Shown here: positions 5,701 through 50,111 of the stretch, in pieces
How positions within the stretch are numbered: the first letter of the stretch is position 1
How the letters are laid out: each line of letters starts with the position of its first letter
Assembly (NCBI GenBank): GCA_963924555.1
Contig: OZ004592.1
Location: 4,650,001-4,714,000 of the forward strand
DNA length: 64,000 bases
Source of the DNA: Crambe crambe
Lineage: Eukaryota; Porifera; Demospongiae; Poecilosclerida; Crambeidae
Reading direction: 5' to 3'
Notes under the pieces: model-generated
The model's input: the letters and a program-made list of their open reading frames with translations, nothing else
What the model was told of the DNA's origin: nothing
Databases searched by the model: none
Made by a program: the position numbers and the translations under genes

Positions 5701-6499
5701 TGTGCTATTCACAATGCACCAAAACCACATTTCAGATCCTCAGCATGCAGATGCTCCTTAGCAACGAAGGAAGTCCAGAAATTCCAGTCACTCAGTATGG
5801 AGGTCTATACCTTACTTTGGATCGAAACACTTGATATATGCTATTCCAGCACTCTGCTGTCTATTGACGATGATCTTTCTTCCTCTTCTGTACCTGTTTG
5901 TCTTACCATTATTGCTCAAAATTCTGGGTGTATGTGGATTAAGTGAGCACTATCTTGTGACTGGAGTTCTCAAGCTGATATGCCAGCAAAAACTGATGCC
6001 AATATTGGATGCGTTTCAATCGTGCTTCAAGAATGAAACGAGATTTTTTGCTGGAATGTATTTCCTGTATAGAACAGCGATTCTGGCAGCAGTGACATTC
6101 AGCAGAAATGAAATTCAGCTATATGGAACTGTAGAACTGATTTTCCTCATGATTCTAGGAATACACGCTATTGTCCAGCCATACAAGCAGGAGAGGCATA
6201 ATATGATAGATGCAACATTGTTTTTGAACTTGGCTATTATCAATGGACTGAATATCTTTATCAATGTTGCTTCAGAAACCAATTTAGAATACAACAGGTC
6301 AACTGGTGTATTCTCAATCATTATTTCAGTCATCCAGTTGGTGTTGGTTTATTTTCCAGTGGTTGCTATCATTTTCAAGATTCTTTTCAACTTCATCACT
6401 AGAAGATTGTCATCAAACTCTGAAAGCATAGATTCTTCACTTCAAGATCGATCTGATTCAAACAGTAACATCCCATTACTTTTGAGTGCACGATCATAG
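2772..6499 (+). CDS. secreted-type beta-helix protein with C-terminal multi-pass membrane domain (frameshifted)
   Basis: The ATG at 2772 is followed by a hydrophobic signal peptide (about 22 residues ending CSAAE). The ectodomain (to about residue 700) carries repeated Asn-rich turns with N-x-A-x-x-GGG motifs (HTGGG, TAGGG, SYGGG, KGGA, AGGA). This is the pattern of POMP/pectin-lyase-like right-handed beta-helix repeats. A Cys-rich stretch follows (CPPGYYF, CSADN, CEQC), then about eight hydrophobic segments to the end. Apart from the break the gene has no introns, unlike its neighbours. The frame ends at TGA 5832-5834, but the membrane domain continues at once in another frame (about 5810-6499, TAG). 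One base appears to be missing near 5808-5810. A 47-bp intron at 5803-5849 would also restore frame but would remove a stretch resembling the rest of the domain. Function unknown; similar architectures are common in sponges and cnidarians (general knowledge). Confidence 0.75.
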
Positions 6500-6563
6500 A
6501 ACTTTCGTGATTTTTGTTACACTGCTGTTAATACTCCTTTTTTTTTATTTTTTTTTTTTAATT

Positions 6564-8345
6564 GCAGCGAGCGAGCGAAGCGAGTGAGCTGACTCTCAGG
6601 TCATGACTCATTGAAATTTTAAATATATACATGTATATATATATATCTAGGTCTACACTCCAAAATGCCCCAGGCGTACGTACGTACGTACGTGTCGTGC
6701 AATAGTAGCGCCCCTGCGCGTGCATTTATGCGCATGCTCCAGTTGCAATTGCTTGATTGATTTCTACATCGCTTTGTATACAAGTGAATGCAAAAAATTT
6801 CTTCGAAATAAAAATGTGAAGTAGGGATGCTATTATAACTGCAGCTTCATTATGAAAACCAAGTACTGCAGCATCGAAGCAGTATGGCCCAAAAATCTAG
6901 CTGGAATATGTATTATAACTGCATGCAAGAGAGTGAACTTAGTGAAGTGACCCTTACCCAACATCAAGTACGAGATACTATTCCTACTTCACTCCCTTGG
7001 CCCTTGATCATGGGAGTGAAGTAGGAATAGTATCTTGTACTTGATGATGGGTAAGGGTCACTTCACTAAGTTCACTCTCTTGCATGCAGTTATAATACAT
7101 ATTCCAGCTAGATTTTTGGGCCATACTGCTTCGATGCTGCAGTACTTGGTTTTCATAATGAAGCTGCAGTTATAATAGCATCCCTACTTCACATTTTTAT
7201 TTCGAAGAAATTTTTTGCATTCACTTGTTTGCATTCTTTTTCTTTGTGATTATGAAAATTGATAGACACTAAAGGCTTCCTTGATTGAACTAAATTTATT
7301 TAATGATCAGTATTTCATTCTGTTCAGGGAGGAGAGTTTGAAGGATGATCATCTGCAGTGTAATGGAGTACTGAAAGGAGTGAACATTACAGCATTAGCT
7401 AATTGTTACATACTGAACATCATCAGATAATGAATGAAGACCTTGGCTATAGGTAAACTTAAGCTTACGTGGCTCCGCCCATAAGCCCCGCCCCCTTCAA
7501 AATGGCGTAGAAAGATAAGCAGCTGTGTTCCGAGTGCTATCGAATAGTGAAGTAGAGCCTTAGTCAAAACTAATAGCAAAAGATCAGCCTCTAGGTGCCG
7601 CTCTAACAGATGGCCAAAGCAGAATTTTGATGACTATAGCCAGTAAGCCGGTACGTCGATCTTATTATTATTATTATCCTTATTATTATAAAGAAAAAGA
7701 ACGAAAAGTCAATTTTAGAACTCGTTTTTTTCTTATGTTGGCGAATGAATTTTTGGCTTTTGAACATTCTCCTCTCTTCTTTGTAGATATAATAATTCAC
7801 TGTAGCCTTCTGAGAACCTGTAGAGTAAGGGTAGAAGAGAAAGAAGAGTTTTTAGTTTATACTGTCCTATGGACTTTGACCTGCCATCCCTACTTAGAGA
7901 GTGCTACCGCACTCTCTGATAGCATGGTGGATAGTATGGCTAGGCTTATCTAAGTGGATTGTAGGCACTAGACATATCCAAGTGCTTTGTGGTAAGTACT
8001 TAGCTTTCTATGCATGCAGCTGCCTGCCACTTAGCTACATAACACAACAGCAAAGCAAGCTCAACATTTCTACAGCCTTTTGGGCAGCAGGCACAAGAGG
8101 CTTATCTAAGCGGCTTGTAGGCACTAGGCTTATCTAAGTGCTTTGAGGTAAGCATGTATGCAGCTGCCTGCCACCACTTACATGATTCTTAGCAATATCA
8201 AGCACTGAAGCCTATCAGCTACTTTAATTGCTCACTGTCAAATGCTGCACATTGCTATAGATACTCAACAGCAAATGAAAATCGTTGAAGAATACTTGCT
8301 TGCTCGCTCGCTGTCAACTGAATGTTGAACATTGCCCTAGTTGGC
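6564..8345. repeat. mosaic repeat block, copy 1
   Basis: A chain of modules that recur in other orders at 43.98-44.5, 49.8-50.9, 52.9-53.6 and 56.4-61.7 kb. They include a GCGAGCGAGCGAAGCGAG end, an ATCTAGGTCTACACTCC module with an ACGT microsatellite, a foldback, a GC-box/AAAATGGCG module (7467-7515), a TTA microsatellite and an AGAGAGTGC...GCACTCTCT small palindrome (7896-7917). The block ends with an AAGTGCTTTG/CAGCTGCCTGCC module ending near TTGCCCTAG. No protein of its own is evident. The modules look like a non-autonomous element assembled from nested insertions. Confidence 0.7.
6781..7227. repeat. long foldback (inverted repeat) element, copy 1
   Basis: Two arms of about 215 bp, 6781-6995 and 7012-7227, are near-perfect reverse complements around a loop of about 15 bp (TTGGCCCTTGATCAT). 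The ends read CAAGTGAATGCAAAAAATTT. Transcribed, it would form a long double-stranded hairpin. Related copies lie at 49854-50111, 56953-57294 and 58390-58836. Confidence 0.9.
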
Positions 8346-11066: not shown

Positions 11067-20185
<9,119 letters not shown>

Positions 20186-43981: not shown

Positions 43982-44512
43982 AGGGCAATGTTCAACATTC
44001 AGTTGAAAGCGAGCGAGCAAGCAAGTATTCTTCAACGATTTTCATTTGCTGTTGAGTATCTATAGCAATGTGCAGCATTTGACAGTGAGCAATTAAAGTA
44101 GCTGATAGGCTTCAGTGCTTGATATTGCTAAGAGTCATGTAAGTGGTGGCAGGCAGCTGCATAAATGCTTACCTCAAAGCACTTAGATAAGCCTAGTGCC
44201 TACAAGCCGCTTAGATAAGCCTCTTGTGCCTGCTGTAGAAATGTTGAGCTTGCTTTGCTGTTGTGTTATGTAGCTAAGTGTCAGGCAGCTGCATGCATAG
44301 AAAGCTAAATACTTACCACAAAGCACTTGGATATGTCTAGTGCCTACAATCCACTTAGATAAGCCTAGCCCTACTATCCACCATGCTATATATGTAGAAA
44401 TCAATCAAGCAATTGCAACTGGAGCATGCGCATAAATGCACGCGCAGGGGCGCTACTATTGCACGACACGTACGTACGTACGTACGTACGCCTGGGGCAT
44501 TTTGGAGTGTAG
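43982..44512. repeat. mosaic repeat block, copy 2 (left part, interrupted)
   Basis: Reverse-complement relative of the end of copy 1 (AGGGCAATGTTCAACATTCA and the GCTTACCTCAAAGCACTTAG module), then the GGGGCATTTTGGAGTGTAG module. It is interrupted at 44512 by the transposon and resumes at 49843 with ACCTAGATATA. Confidence 0.8.
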
Positions 44513-44673
44513 TACGGTGGCTTTTTAGGGCCACTTCCTTCAATTCCAGTTCCACTCTACTGCCACTCTACTTCCACTCTGTCATAGCAATTTCCACTCT
44601 ACTTCCACTCTGTCATGCCGATTTACACTCTACTTCCACTCCAATTCCACTCTATTTCCACTCTGCTTCCACT
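44513..44673 (+). repeat. left terminal inverted repeat of the 5.3-kb transposon
   Basis: Pairs with 49676-49836 at 160 of 161 positions. After the first 35 bp it consists of CCACTCT motifs every 10-11 bp (TTCCACTCTACTTCCACTC), a likely array of transposase-binding sites. The transposase ATG lies 34 bp inside its inner edge. Confidence 0.92.
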
Positions 44674-44706
44674 TTGTTCCTGATTAGCTAATTTAAGAGT
44701 TGAAGA

Positions 44707-46367
44707 ATGGATGATGATGCAAGAAGTTTAGTTAGGCTGTATTTTGAAGCAGGGTACTCTTATAACTTGATATTATGCTTTCTGGCTAGTCTTCATGGGA
44801 TTGTTGTATCACTGAGAACTTTAAAACGTACTTTGCATAAAATGGGTCTCAGAAGGAGAGGTGTACAAACAGATATTGCAAGGGCCTTTCAAAACGTACA
44901 GGTACATTATATCAAAGTTTTAGCTAGTTGGACAGTCACCTATTTAGCTATTTCTGTAGTTTGAACTCTCCCAGTCTGGCTCATCATTAGGATATCGTGC
45001 CATGCACTTTCGACTACAGCAGAGATACAAACTGAGTATATCAAGGTTAACTCTGCAATAACTAAGCTCTATTGGTTCAATATCAACTCCTCTTGTAGAG
45101 AAGAAGTTCGAATAATGCTTTCTTATATTGATCCCGAAGGTGTAAATTCTAGAAAGAAAAATAGATTAAAAAGGAGAGTTTACTCATCCAAGGTGGATAA
45201 CCCCTAACTTAGTGTACAGCTTGATAATAATATTATTATGGTGTTGATAGGGCCCTAACTATTGCTGGCACATAGATGGCAACGACAAGTTGCTACCTTT
45301 TGACTTTGCTATTCATGGAGGAATTGATGGGTAATTAATTACATGGATGCATGTATGTACATTAATTTTGTGTTTCATAATAGATATTCCCGCAAAATTT
45401 TATGGTTGGAAGTATGCCCTACAAACAAAGATTCAAAAGTCATTGCTGGCTACTATCTGGATGCTGTCAAGAAGTATGGTAAGAATACTCTTAGCTACTC
45501 AATATCTATAGTTTATAATCAATAATTAATCACATGCAAATAGGTTGTCCTAAAGTTGTTCGTGCAGACAGGGGCACAGAAAATGCAAAAATTGCATTTA
45601 TGCAACCTTTCTTGAGGCATCAGTGTAGTGATGACTTCGCTCGAAATTCATTTCGCTATGGGAGATCAGTCAGTAATCAAGTGAGAATTATCAGAGAAGT
45701 TTAGACTAACTAGCTAATCGCATTTCTTATCAGAGAATTGAACGTTGGTGGGGGCATCTTTATCAGTGGTGTACTGGATTCTGGATTCGCTTCTTTAAGG
45801 TGAAACTTAGTAATAAAGTACTGTTATAAATGACAATAGTAAGAATATTGTAGATGCTTCGAGATGAAGGTTACTATGATGATTCAGACTCCACCCAGAG
45901 GTAAGGATATTTTGCTAAAACATGAAGTGACTATGATGCATCAACTTCATGTAGGGATTGCCTGAAATTTGCCTTCACCAATCTAATCCAGGCTGATCTG
46001 GACAAAATGGTGACTGCTTGGAACATGCACCGAATTAGGCATAACACCAGTACTTGTGTTGATGGAATCCCAGATGAGCTTTTTTATCTGCCTGAAATTA
46101 GAGGTTAGCTAACACAATAATAATGTAATTCACTAAATATTTTTATGTATAATAGGTCATGAAGACCATTCTTGTGAATGTACTGATGGTGACTTACAGT
46201 TGTGTTGGCAATATGCCTGTGAAAAGCTACCACCTACTAGTAGAGAATTTACTAATTTGGCACACATTATTATGGAAGAAGAAGACCTTCATCTGCCGGA
46301 AACTCCAACAGAAGCATTAGAATTGTATTTTGATTTGCTGAATAACATTAATTCCATGGTACAATGA
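44707..46367 (+). CDS. integrase-core (DDE) transposase, 386 aa, ten exons
   Basis: Exons: 44707-44901, 44960-45045, 45099-45192, 45251-45330, 45384-45478, 45544-45680, 45734-45799, 45854-45900, 45955-46103, 46156-46367. Sum 1161 nt with no frame breaks. The N-terminal ~120 residues look like paired helix-turn-helix DNA-binding units (SLRTLKRTLHKMGLRRRG; GYRAMHFRLQQRY). The integrase fold follows, with candidate catalytic residues D134 (CWHIDGND), D192 (VRADRGTEN) and E232 (NQRIERWWG). The spacing (D-39-E) and the YSRKILWL strand are of retroviral-integrase/IS3 type. The C-terminal part includes CECTDGDLQLCW, a possible Cys cluster. All three acidic residues and every splice site are intact, so the enzyme could be functional. 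It lies within the terminal repeats and would cut and paste the element. Confidence 0.85.
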
Positions 46368-46482
46368 ACCATAAGTAACAAACATGTATGAATCTGAGAT
46401 AAGAATGAACAATGAATCTGAGATCAATTCAATAGCTATAGCTAGCTAGTATGATGAACCACAGGTATGAAATGAATAATAG

Positions 46483-49400
46483 TTAATCTAGAAGGCTATT
46501 ACAGATTGCACCCAACACATCTGCAGCAGATGCCCTTTGCTCTACTGGAACAAAGCACATCTGCACTACTTCCTTCACTCCAGGAGAAAGATGAGATATG
46601 TCAGGATACGAGCCCCCTGCAACTTTCAAAATGATCGTATGTGGTGCTAAACCATTCCAAATTTCCTTCTCTCCGAATACTTCTGTAATTATGCATCCCA
46701 AAGCATATACATCGCTTCCGACACCACAGAGTTCTCCTCTCAACTGCTCTGGAGGCTGAAATGCAGGTGTTCCAGCCTGCATTGTGGTACGGCCAGCTCC
46801 TAGTGTGGGAATGATTTTGCTTAGTCCAAAATCAGCAACAGATACACGATACGTAACTAATTCAACCTGTTAATTAAAAATCATAATGATGGTAAGTATG
46901 TAAAATAATCTAGCAACCTACAAGTATATTCTCCGGCTTGAGGTCAAGATGAACAATAGGTGGATCATATGTGTGCATAAATACCAAAGCTTGGGCAATT
47001 TGCTGAACAATAAATATCTTTTCTTTGAAGTCAAGTACAATCTGAAGCAAAATAATTTTGTCAGTGTGATTACCATAAGTGCTAGCTATAGCTAGCTAGT
47101 TGAAAATTTTGTTCACCTTCTTATCTGAATGCATTAAGTCAAATAAATTCAGTCCTGCTATAAAGTTTGTAATCAGTATGACTTTTCCTGGCTCTTCAAC
47201 CATCCCCATAAATGTCAATACATTTGGATGGTGTAATGTTCTATAAATCATTCATTATTATAGTTACACATTCATTATGATTCATTCATTTTGTGGAAAA
47301 CATGAGATTTACCTGTACACATTCAATTCATTCTCGATAACTTTCATGTTTCCATGAAGAACCTTAGCAGCAACAACACTTCCCCTCCAAACTGCCTTAT
47401 ATACCTGCCCAAATGCTCCTCCTCCTACCAATTCTATTAACTTTATACCCATTGGATCTGTTAAATGGGTATTAATATTGCCATAAAAGAATACTATAAC
47501 TCACTCTTACAAGACTCAATAATGTGAGCAAAATCCTCTGCTGCCACATACTTGCTATCTTTGGTGGCAGATGCAGACTTTGTCAATATATCATCTCCTA
47601 TGACCTCCACTTCAGATTGCACGCCATCTGGCTCATTTCGGGTTGTACAGTCTGTTGTCAATGATGATAATAATAATTGTGACAGGCACATAATTTTTCC
47701 CATTACCAGCAATGTTGTAATAACTAATTATAACTGTGGTTTGGCAGTTAAGACTTCAAAAAGAGTTCAATACTGTGTAGTGATAACTACTGGTCTGGGT
47801 AGTTGGAGGAAGTGGTACACTATAACATCTCTATAGAGAAAGCATGATTATTAGGGGGAAAAAAGGCTTGAAGTTGTTTTTGTTAGTTCATTTGTTAGTC
47901 GTTTGCTCGCAGCTTGGAATCACAGAAACAGGAAGGGAAAGAGGGTGTGGCATTGCAATTTATTATGTTTCTATAGGGAATAGAATGCTACAATACAGGT
48001 AACAGGATATGTTCACCTTCATTAAGCTTTGCTGTAAATTTATGTTCTGCACCTGTGAAAACAATAGTACAGTGTAAGAATTGCATTATACTATCAAGCT
48101 TGCTCTAGGCCCATTACCTTCAACTATAAATTGACGAGCAGTTATGAATTCTGCACATGACACAGTGCACGTATATGTACCAGCAGCAGAACAGTACTGA
48201 AGGGGTGTAACATTCGATAATGGTGAACTATTGCATTGCCAACCATAGGTAGCTATCCCGTGATAGCCATTCAAAGCAATGCAGGCCAGGAGTGCTACTC
48301 TGGATATAGCATAGCATCCACTCCATACATCAAATTCTGATTCTAGTAGGAATAATTATTCTATCATGCACTTTATCACAGAAATGGTATACTTAGTTAC
48401 CTGCATTAGGAGTAACATATTTCACTTCACCACTGTTAGAGTCCATATCATCAATGAATGAAAATACTTCTGTATACAGGAGTTTACATAATACAGCTGG
48501 ATGGGAATGATCATGAGGCCACTTACTTTCACCAGTGTCTATTTCATACAAGAAAGAGTCACTTTCTAGAGGATTATCTTCAAAGAGATGCAGATTATCA
48601 GGTGACTCCTCAATATAATCACGAACCTCCATCATCCTTTCAATGTCATCATCATAATGATTGGACAAAACAGTTTGTTGTGTCATTCCACATGAAAATA
48701 CATAGACATCACGATACAGACTCTTCTTTTTGGTCACAAAAGTTACTTCAAAATAACCAGGTGGGGTCTGTTGAGAGTTCGTAGAACATCTTTTTTGTGC
48801 TATTTATGTACACTACTAAAACTATGTCAATAATAGTTGCTAGCTATATTCTAACCTGGTTCATTTACTTCTTCAGCCGACCTCTTCCTTTGTACTATTG
48901 TGATTATAATTATCAGCCATGACTCATTGTATGTATTTAATATTACCTGCATCAGCAACTTTTTTTTCGATGATTTTTTTGTTGATCTGATCCTTTCCCT
49001 GTTTATTATTATAAATATATAGCTAAAATGTATTACTTGTTTAAAACTGACATACCAGTACGAAGCTTCCTCACACAATACAAACGTACACGAGAGGGAT
49101 ATTTCACATTTGAAACTCTGAGGTAGTTACTCAAAGTCCAAGGCAAGGTTTCCTTAGAACCATCTGGCAAATTGAGGTCAAATGAGCAGGAATCAATTGC
49201 TATGCCAGATCCATCGGCTAAAAAATACTCATAGTTTCTTTTTTTACTGCCCCAAACAGTTTCACAGCACTTGTTGAGCACGTCCAAAGAAGCACTATCT
49301 TTGTGGAAGGCAATTTTGATGGATGCAAATGATCTATCCATAATACCTCTCATCTTCTCAAAATCATACTCCATCCTTCCAATACTGATCTGCATAGATG

Positions 49401-49632
49401 GGTAGCTATTTGGCTTAAGCAACTCCATTTTAACTTACAAGCATTTGTCCCTGTAATGGGTCAGGTTCATTGCTGCAGTTGGGTAATTTCTTTTTCTGCC
49501 TTGCAATCCGCATATAATTAGCTAAGGCTAAAATAGAGCTAGCAGTAAAAAAGAAAGAAGAGGACTACAACCTTCTTCTCGTTTAGAAGTAGTTTTGGTC
49601 CCTCTCTCTTCAGCCATCAAGACTTCAGCCAT
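46483..49632 (-). CDS. Ig-like domain plus protein kinase, 681 aa, inside the transposon
   Basis: Exons: 49632-49572, 49527-49439, 49389-49056, 48894-48856, 48799-48527, 48469-48401, 48342-48118, 48052-48017, 47651-47505, 47457-47313, 47240-47117, 47041-46922, 46866-46483. Sum 2046 nt. Residues 1-160 have no family that I know. Residues about 289-363 are Ig-like (WQC...YTCTVSC). The C-terminal ~255 residues are a protein kinase: glycine loop GGGAFGQVY (436-444), K456 in VVAAK, Glu in IENE, HLD-L-KPEN with D547, DFG at 566-568, PPE for APE. All catalytic residues are present. Tyrosine-kinase-like group is the best guess. No signal peptide or membrane segment is visible. An extra 52-bp exon at about 48951-49002 is possible with another exon-3 donor (after the Cys of RLYC). 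The ATG lies 44 bp inside the right terminal repeat. The long upstream part and the kinase could be two genes, but phase is continuous. Confidence 0.75.
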
Positions 49633-49675
49633 CAAGAAATGTCCACGTGTACGAGTTTTTGCGCATGCACAATAG

Positions 49676-49836
49676 AGTGGAAGCAGAGTGGAAATAGAGT
49701 GGAATTGGAGTGGAAGTAGAGTGTAAATCGGCATGACAGAGTGGAAGTAGAGTGGAAATTGCTATGACAGAGTGGAAGTAGAGTGGCAGTAGAGTGGAAC
49801 TGGAATTGAAGGAAGTGGCCCTAAAAAGCCACCATA
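49676..49836 (-). repeat. right terminal inverted repeat of the 5.3-kb transposon
   Basis: Reverse complement of 44513-44673 with a single difference at the third base from the end. It carries the same periodic AGAGTGG motifs and lies just upstream of the kinase gene, so it may also act as its promoter. Confidence 0.92.
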
Positions 49837-49853
49837 GTGTAGACCTAGATATA

Positions 49854-50111
49854 CAAGTGAGTGCAAAAAATTTCTTCTAAATAAAAAGGTTAAGTAGGGA
49901 TAGCCTAAAATCTAGCTGGGTTATATAATGTACTGCAGCCTCGTATGAATACAATCCCTACATTTACATCCACTACCTATAGCTAGCTACGGCAGTTGTA
50001 AAAGTAGGGATTGTATTCATACGAGGCTGCAGTACATTATATAGCCCAGCTAGATTTTAGGCTATCCCTACTTAACCTTTTTATTTAGAAGAAATTTTTT
50101 GCACTCACTTG
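49854..50111. repeat. foldback element, short type (108-bp arms)
   Basis: Arms 49854-49961 and 50004-50111 around a 42-bp loop. The outer ends (CAAGTGAGTGCAAAAAATTT) are those of the long foldbacks, but the inner sequence differs, so a second subfamily shares the same termini. A partial right arm of this subfamily recurs at 57740-57840 and 59225-59330. Confidence 0.88.

Follow-up and report, generated by a model that had tools for sequence, protein, structure and literature searches.

An IS3EU-type transposon of the sponge Crambe crambe carries a conserved protein kinase gene beside its transposase

We analysed a window of 64,000 nucleotides from the sponge Crambe crambe (assembly GCA_963924555.1, contig OZ004592.1, here C15, positions 4650001-4714000, strand +) in which positions 44513-49836 hold a 5,324-bp transposon with two genes, one for a DDE transposase and one for a protein kinase. 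Sequence comparisons establish that the element is mobile and that its kinase is conserved and catalytically plausible; we hold it likely that we are dealing with an IS3EU-type cut-and-paste DNA transposon that was active recently and appears to be autonomous. In two parts of this reading, the identity of the element and the long residence of the kinase in it, our confidence is higher still. The genome searched for further copies is the 143.1-Mb assembly of 119 contigs; C-numbers denote contigs and L-numbers fetched loci.

Structure of the element

Terminus alignment delimits a left terminal inverted repeat (44513..44673, +) that begins TACGGTGGC and a right one (49676..49836, −) with the inward reading TATGGTGGC; the two are 161 bp long and identical at 160/161 positions (99.38%), and a repeat finder gives them as 166 nt long at 98%. 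Comparison of the flanks places GTGTAG on both sides (44507..44512 and 49837..49842), that is, a 6-bp target site duplication (TSD). A preliminary description of the window, made from its letters, had claimed these termini and this duplication, and both are borne out. With up to 3 mismatches, a 26-base terminal pattern matches the window only at the two ends of the element (0 matches in 100 shuffles). The window copy has the ends TACGG/TATGG, the other copies and subfamilies have TATGG or TACGG, and the overall pattern is TAYGG..CCRTA. The inner part of the termini is built from units of ~11 bp with the core CCACTCT; such a sub-repeat layout is frequent for transposase binding sites.

Between the termini lie two genes, both spliced and intact in the window copy, that are arranged tail to tail with 115 bp between their stop codons. 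The transposase ATG (44707) is 34 bp inward of the left terminus and the kinase ATG (49632) 44 bp inward of the right one, at the distances first described; from this geometry, it is plausible that each terminus drives the adjoining gene.

The transposase and assignment to IS3EU

The transposase gene (44707..46367, +) has 10 exons (44707-44901, 44960-45045, 45099-45192, 45251-45330, 45384-45478, 45544-45680, 45734-45799, 45854-45900, 45955-46103 and 46156-46367) with GT-AG introns, the splice sites having been examined in the window copy only, and encodes 386 amino acids (aa) without an internal stop. The protein matches Pfam PF24764 (rva_4; E 4.6e-43), its matches to helix-turn-helix models are weak, and its catalytic triad is D134, D192 and E232; a regular-expression search of the 386-aa protein found no HHCC zinc motif. 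The NCBIfam IS481 model gives E 5e-10, below the cut-off of that model. Database relatives number 993 proteins at E≤0.001, which are rva_4 proteins; among the 120 listed, those with a named organism come from Halichondria panicea, from corals (Acropora, including A. palmata LOC141859469, and Montipora) and from Nematostella (LOC116615414), and the best named relative is Halichondria panicea LOC135337880 (54%). No relative was confirmed when the viral_contigs and genome_contigs collections were scanned with the transposase alignment.

As described in the available part of PMC10045372, IS3EU elements have TA..TA termini, lack the HHCC motif and make a TSD that is usually 6 bp long; the window element has TA..TA ends, a 6-bp TSD and a DDE transposase without HHCC. 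By these described features (ends, TSD, transposase motifs), it appears to match the IS3EU superfamily (IS3EU/GingerRoot, a Repbase superfamily), with which it has in common the ends TAYGG..CCRTA, the TSD length and the HHCC-less DDE integrase-type transposase. Three other assignments were considered and rejected: Ginger1/Ginger2 have TSDs of 4-5 bp and IS481EU has TSDs of ~4, ~15 or ~25 bp with TNT..AYA ends (PMC10045372, same part), as opposed to 6 bp and TAYGG..CCRTA here, and Polinton/Maverick elements carry several conserved genes, up to eight in the available part of PMC3520738, as opposed to two genes in 5.3 kb.

The kinase gene

The second gene (46483..49632, −) is modelled with 13 exons (49632-49572, 49527-49439, 49389-49056, 48894-48856, 48799-48533, 48469-48401, 48342-48118, 48052-48017, 47651-47511, 47457-47313, 47240-47117, 47041-46922 and 46866-46483), all introns GT-AG, and encodes 677 aa without an internal stop. 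Support for its second exon comes from the L035 subfamily, which the reading of this exon resembles by eye. Pfam matches the protein to PF00069 (Pkinase; E 2.4e-39) and otherwise only to PF07714 (PK_Tyr_Ser-Thr). Among solved structures CTR1 is the best match (E 5.5e-36), followed by TNNI3K and B-Raf; with these closest structures as the basis, the kinase domain (exons in 46483..47457, −, with the motifs GGGAFG, AAK, HLDLKPEN and DFG) can tentatively be called TKL-like. It differs from the TKL kinases, of which the Raf-like CTR1, TNNI3K and B-Raf are its best sequence matches among solved structures, in having HLD (HFD in L034) instead of HRD and a QPPEQL-type end of the activation segment, and the window protein differs from them in its N-terminal region, in which residues 1-400 of an earlier model matched none of 3,392 candidates of the protein database at E≤10. 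Non-RD kinases need less activation-loop phosphorylation. The protein search with the full-length kinase was dominated by generic kinases.

Pfam did not match an immunoglobulin (Ig) domain; nevertheless, the predicted structure of the exon at 48118..48342 (−) is Ig-like. Its model retrieves Ig folds in Foldseek (prob 1.0, TMq about 0.6-0.8 in the top rows) with a best E of 7.8e-3 and none ≤0.001, and of the five models built, the best has a mean pLDDT of 74.7 and the remaining four have ≤55.6. The N-terminal domain exon (49056..49389, −) gives, in a low-depth AlphaFold2 (AF2) model, a weak hint of a beta-grasp/ubiquitin-like fold (mean pLDDT 73.3, best E 7.8e-3); the modelled stretch is 49057-49428, starting 13 residues upstream of this exon. 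The 677-aa protein also contains RKRSAEEVNEPAQKR, which resembles a bipartite nuclear localization signal; no signal peptide or membrane span was seen in it by eye. The two complete convergent genes of the preliminary description, a DDE transposase and an Ig/kinase protein, therefore stand, the first two assignments by Pfam and the Ig domain by a predicted model.

The first kinase model contained an additional exon, 48998-48947, that was discarded; its A-rich tract differs in length among the copies and is in frame only in the copy at C12:2896470. Without it, and with the start at 49632, a single open frame runs through the window and C3 copies. The A-rich stretch at window 48947-48998, variable in length among six copies, is now placed in an intron. 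The Pfam, protein and tblastn searches used the earlier model as query, which holds the stretch from 48998-48947 and one extra G and begins with 13 residues where the final model has 50; the two models do not differ in the kinase domain.

Copies of the same subfamily

A search of the genome with a 162-base terminus gave 25 matches when each end is counted separately, and five further copies of the window's subfamily were found. Four of them are two-ended (two on C12, one each on C9 and C3), hold the same gene pair and differ in their flanks. The fifth, on C17, is truncated; in addition, C5:3767257 is a single end and C1:4616625 a 186-bp two-ended deletion form with the TSD CTTAAT. Pairwise identity of the six copies is 99.13-99.81% with gaps left out. 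Four of the five two-ended copies, the window included, have perfect, mutually different 6-bp TSDs (GTGTAG in the window, CTAGAT and CTGTTG on C12, CTTTGG on C3), and the C9 copy has none. Full-length copies with the same genes and different flanks are what the preliminary description had anticipated of a kinase-bearing family. The candidate explanation of the kinase as an ordinary host gene at this locus was rejected, as termini, TSDs and the two genes are found again elsewhere in the genome.

The transposase frame is intact in 4/6 copies (window, both C12 copies, C9). Among the four two-ended copies other than the window, one has a broken transposase frame and three have broken kinase frames. 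The broken kinase frames imply that a working kinase is not needed by every recent copy; this fits action in trans and also fits weak usefulness. Polymorphic sites among the six copies, counted where at least five of them have a letter and with the kinase exons of an earlier exon model, are 1/332 in the termini, 20/1158 in transposase exons, 30/1923 in kinase exons and 41/1898 elsewhere. The transposase of the C3 copy holds an insertion of ~1.2 kb (L030, about 5882-7100) bordered, by eye, by an apparent 8-bp duplication CTAATGAT; it is probably a nested second transposon.

Diverged subfamilies with the same gene pair

In the same genome, the transposase-kinase pair is also found in three or more diverged subfamilies. 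L034 (3,073 bp, TSD ATTAAT) and L035 (3,379 bp, TSD CAGTTA) have a terminal tip in common with the window element, to which they are 57-58% identical in the transposase and 57-61% in the last kinase exon. L042 (2,786 bp) is without a TSD, and an element remnant adjoins its left end. L044 (3,665 bp, TSD GGATCC; transposase 50% over 277 anchored positions, last kinase exon 35%) also has an Ig-like exon. L068 is a deleted form (TSD CTATAC); L039, L040, L041, L043 and L067 are one-ended or degenerate; and C3:728855-730725 is a second L044-type copy with two ends and part of the transposase match. A perfect 6-bp TSD is present in 9/11 of the two-ended elements fetched, the exceptions being the C9 copy and L042.

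Kinase sequence is present in 10/11 two-ended loci with a transposase, that is, in the window's subfamily (5), L034, L035, L042, L044 and L068; the exception is C3:728855. Both genes are matched at 17 fetched loci (L026-L031, L034, L035, L039-L044, L051, L067, L068), and at 16 of these they stand tail to tail (L051 is mixed). Loci were chosen in different ways: the window's subfamily, L034, L035 and L039 by terminus alone, L042-L045, L051 and L052 by kinase matches, and L067-L070 by transposase matches. The genome-wide searches scored part of the first-look candidates (e.g., 107/367, 130/425), so the locus counts are lower bounds.

Kinase clade and constraint

When the genome was searched with the kinase, all rows of at least 64 bits fell inside the transposon-linked group, and the first row outside it scored 63.8 bits (C5:3831555). 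In the kinase tree, 13 transposon rows split from 18 others (14 host kinases, hand-picked from the non-transposon rows of that search, and 4 database proteins) with bootstrap 100; the dividing branch has 100 in the newick file and 89 in the summary after midpoint re-rooting, which shifts labels. The tree omits the near-identical L027, L029 and L031 as well as L067 (81 positions), and its rows are query-anchored tblastn pieces with misread stretches, especially in L039 and L044. In the catalytic-loop motif, HLD is found in 14/17 aligned transposon-type loci (L044 read from its open reading frame (ORF)), with HFD in L034 and the motif not covered in L039 and L067, and HRD is found in 13/14 host kinase rows, with HCD in L054. 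Within this genome, no member of the kinase clade was found outside these elements and their remnants.

The transposase tree places L044 and L040 apart from the window and L034 rows (support 92; 72 with L070) and nearer to cnidarian and Halichondria proteins than to the window group (node 97); nodes inside the window group are weak, several deep nodes have 25-33, rows of <110 positions (L041, L043) are dropped, and intron read-through pieces (seen in L026 and L042) stay. This split implies that the kinase pairing is older than the split or was passed between lineages.

NG86 estimates for the window and L035 give nonsynonymous (dN) and synonymous (dS) divergences of 0.393 and 2.42 in the last kinase exon (dN/dS about 0.16) and of 0.339 and 1.67 in the last transposase exon (dN/dS about 0.20); dS is saturated, and NG86 returns no dS for the window kinase compared with L042 or L044. 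At the distance between the window and L035, most of the element is no longer alignable as DNA. As judged from these sequence comparisons, the two genes are an old pair, and both appear to have been under constraint. Because the kinase forms a separate clade, is under constraint like that of the transposase and is paired with it at 10/11 loci, it is a long-term resident and not a fresh capture. Together with the tail-to-tail arrangement at 16/17 loci, this upholds the description of the element as a settled two-gene design.

Several observations weigh against a long-resident, working kinase. The kinase frame is intact in only 2/6 copies of the window's subfamily (window, C3), and only the window copy has both frames intact. 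The kinase exon model was predicted by eye and by comparison of copies, and the saturation of dS applies to the constraint estimate. Transposase occurs without kinase at L069 and L070, kinase without transposase at L045 and L052, and in C3:728855-730725, an internal-deletion copy judged by coordinates only, the kinase stretch has no match. Finally, the co-occurrence count is biased upward because part of the loci were fetched for their kinase matches.

A related family with a HECT domain

For contrast, five further loci with an rva_4 transposase (L046-L050; 34-43% over anchored positions) were taken from the many listed in the genome; no kinase match better than E 0.85 was found in them. The L049 family (six copies, 99-100% over at least 3.4 kb) has a single-exon transposase (2784-1591, −) tail to tail with an ORF (176-1282, +) that contains a HECT domain (PF00632, E 2.4e-10). 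At L049:3444, the point where most copies cease matching, the inward reading is TATGGCGGGG, an IS3EU-type end; the other end is beyond the fetched stretch. The end of a HECT domain is found on the opposite strand in L050 (4957-4580, −; E 1e-7) and a weak HECT match in the same orientation in L047 (4167-4051, −; E 0.018); L046 and L048 have no HECT match.

What the kinase may do

The usual view of eukaryotic cut-and-paste transposons is that little is needed beyond the transposase. In the mechanism we propose, the transposase would bind the ~11-bp sub-repeats in the termini, cut both ends and join them across a 6-bp stagger, and each terminus would serve as promoter and 5' leader of the adjoining gene. 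The 677-aa protein would be an intracellular, catalytically competent, non-RD TKL-like kinase that phosphorylates in trans either the transposase or a host factor by which transposition is held in check (through silencing, DNA repair or cell-cycle control), and it would be kept by selection on the element. We lean slightly towards the view that the kinase aids transposition in trans; that the transposase is its direct substrate seems to us rather doubtful. The long association of the kinase with this lineage, visible in its separate branch, suggests an element that interferes with host or transposase signalling during its life cycle. The best argument for a kinase function is one by analogy, from the presence of unrelated protein-modifying enzymes within the same superfamily.

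The strongest competing account, which we regard as possible but not probable, is that the kinase phosphorylates its own transposase to limit or time transposition and that the host is not targeted. The presence of both genes in one element, the terminus upstream of each and their conserved pairing are as this account predicts; however, the HECT domain in the same place in sister elements fits host and self targets alike.

An improbable account is that the kinase is cargo useful to the animal (e.g., in innate immunity) and preserved by host selection. The combination of Ig-like, kinase and possible ubiquitin-like domains does recall signalling proteins, and L045 and L052 are kinase-only loci; the remnants at these two loci belong to the transposon clade and look decayed by eye, and elsewhere the kinase tracks transposon ends or transposase remnants. 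L045 and L052 are probably decayed elements, although they may be domesticated.

We judge it quite unlikely that the kinase is a host gene that an ancestral element captured by accident and from which it gains no help. The frames broken in 4/6 copies for the kinase and 2/6 for the transposase are consistent with such a passenger, as are the deleted forms (L033, L068) that keep two ends and a TSD and the loss of the kinase stretch from C3:728855. Nevertheless, kinase sequence persists at all but one of the two-ended transposase loci, across four subfamilies; dN in the kinase is far under dS at a distance where most of the element cannot be aligned as DNA; and the catalytic motifs are retained. 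That a transposon merely lies beside a host kinase gene, as two independent elements or through an assembly join, has nothing found in its favour and is refuted for practical purposes, both genes lying between near-identical termini with a TSD in the window and likewise in four other two-ended copies.

Accessory enzymes in other IS3EU elements

In the available part of PMC10045372, IS3EU is described by transposase, ends and TSD only, to which the window element adds a eukaryotic-type kinase. A search of the openly searchable literature, outside which lie Repbase, subscription papers and supplements, found no eukaryotic-type kinase or HECT gene in an IS3EU element, although records of this kind may exist in databases alone, and when kinases were sought in DNA transposons of animals, only a statement on a fungal alpha-kinase turned up. 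The latter concerns the TET+ IS3EU elements of rust fungi, which carry a transposase and an alpha-kinase in opposite orientations (Kojima, 2025, PMC12730594, as far as the accessible text goes); with this precedent published, the remark of the preliminary description that DNA transposons rarely carry a host-type gene is too strong for IS3EU. The rust-fungal and window elements are alike in the opposite orientation of transposase and kinase, the terminal motif and the TSD length. However, the fungal enzyme is, in the same text, an alpha-kinase of an unrelated family (the window kinase is PF00069/PF07714); a TET/JBP gene lies between the two fungal genes, whereas the 115 bp in the window element leave no room for a third gene; and the window protein has an Ig-like domain in addition. 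The window element therefore lacks the alpha-kinase and TET/JBP gene that define the fungal group. A talk by Kapitonov, in the passage available from PMC3520738, describes Intons as multi-gene fungal derivatives of IS3EU ancestors with acquired proteins and suggests that host-derived transposon proteins are regulators of transposition; Intons encode five to six proteins, with a kinase not named in that passage, and the window element encodes two.

With opinion evenly balanced, we propose that IS3EU elements have a conserved tail-to-tail position for an accessory enzyme beside the transposase that was filled independently by unrelated enzymes: a TKL-like kinase with an Ig-like domain in one clade, a HECT ligase in a sister clade of this genome and a rust-fungal alpha-kinase. 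The retention of the kinase across subfamilies, the fungal alpha-kinase and the HECT domain of the sister family suggest that protein modification is needed repeatedly in IS3EU. If the proposal of such a position is true, modification of host or transposase proteins is central to IS3EU biology, and IS3EU elements continually supply host genomes with new kinases and ligases. Some of the kinases counted in such genomes may be mobile ones.

Neighbouring repeats

Just to the right of the transposon, window 49862-50103 is a foldback palindrome with 104-nt arms at 98% and a 28-nt loop. The arm has at least 86 matches in the genome, a count for which 40 of the 1,222 first-look candidates were scored, and is probably a miniature inverted-repeat transposable element; one copy lies about 60 bp from the transposon copy at C12:2896470. 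On C7, a 115-kb contig, the terminus and the foldback repeat occur together near 17313, 57269 and 97221, and this spacing of ~40 kb suggests a tandem ~40-kb duplication or an assembly artefact.

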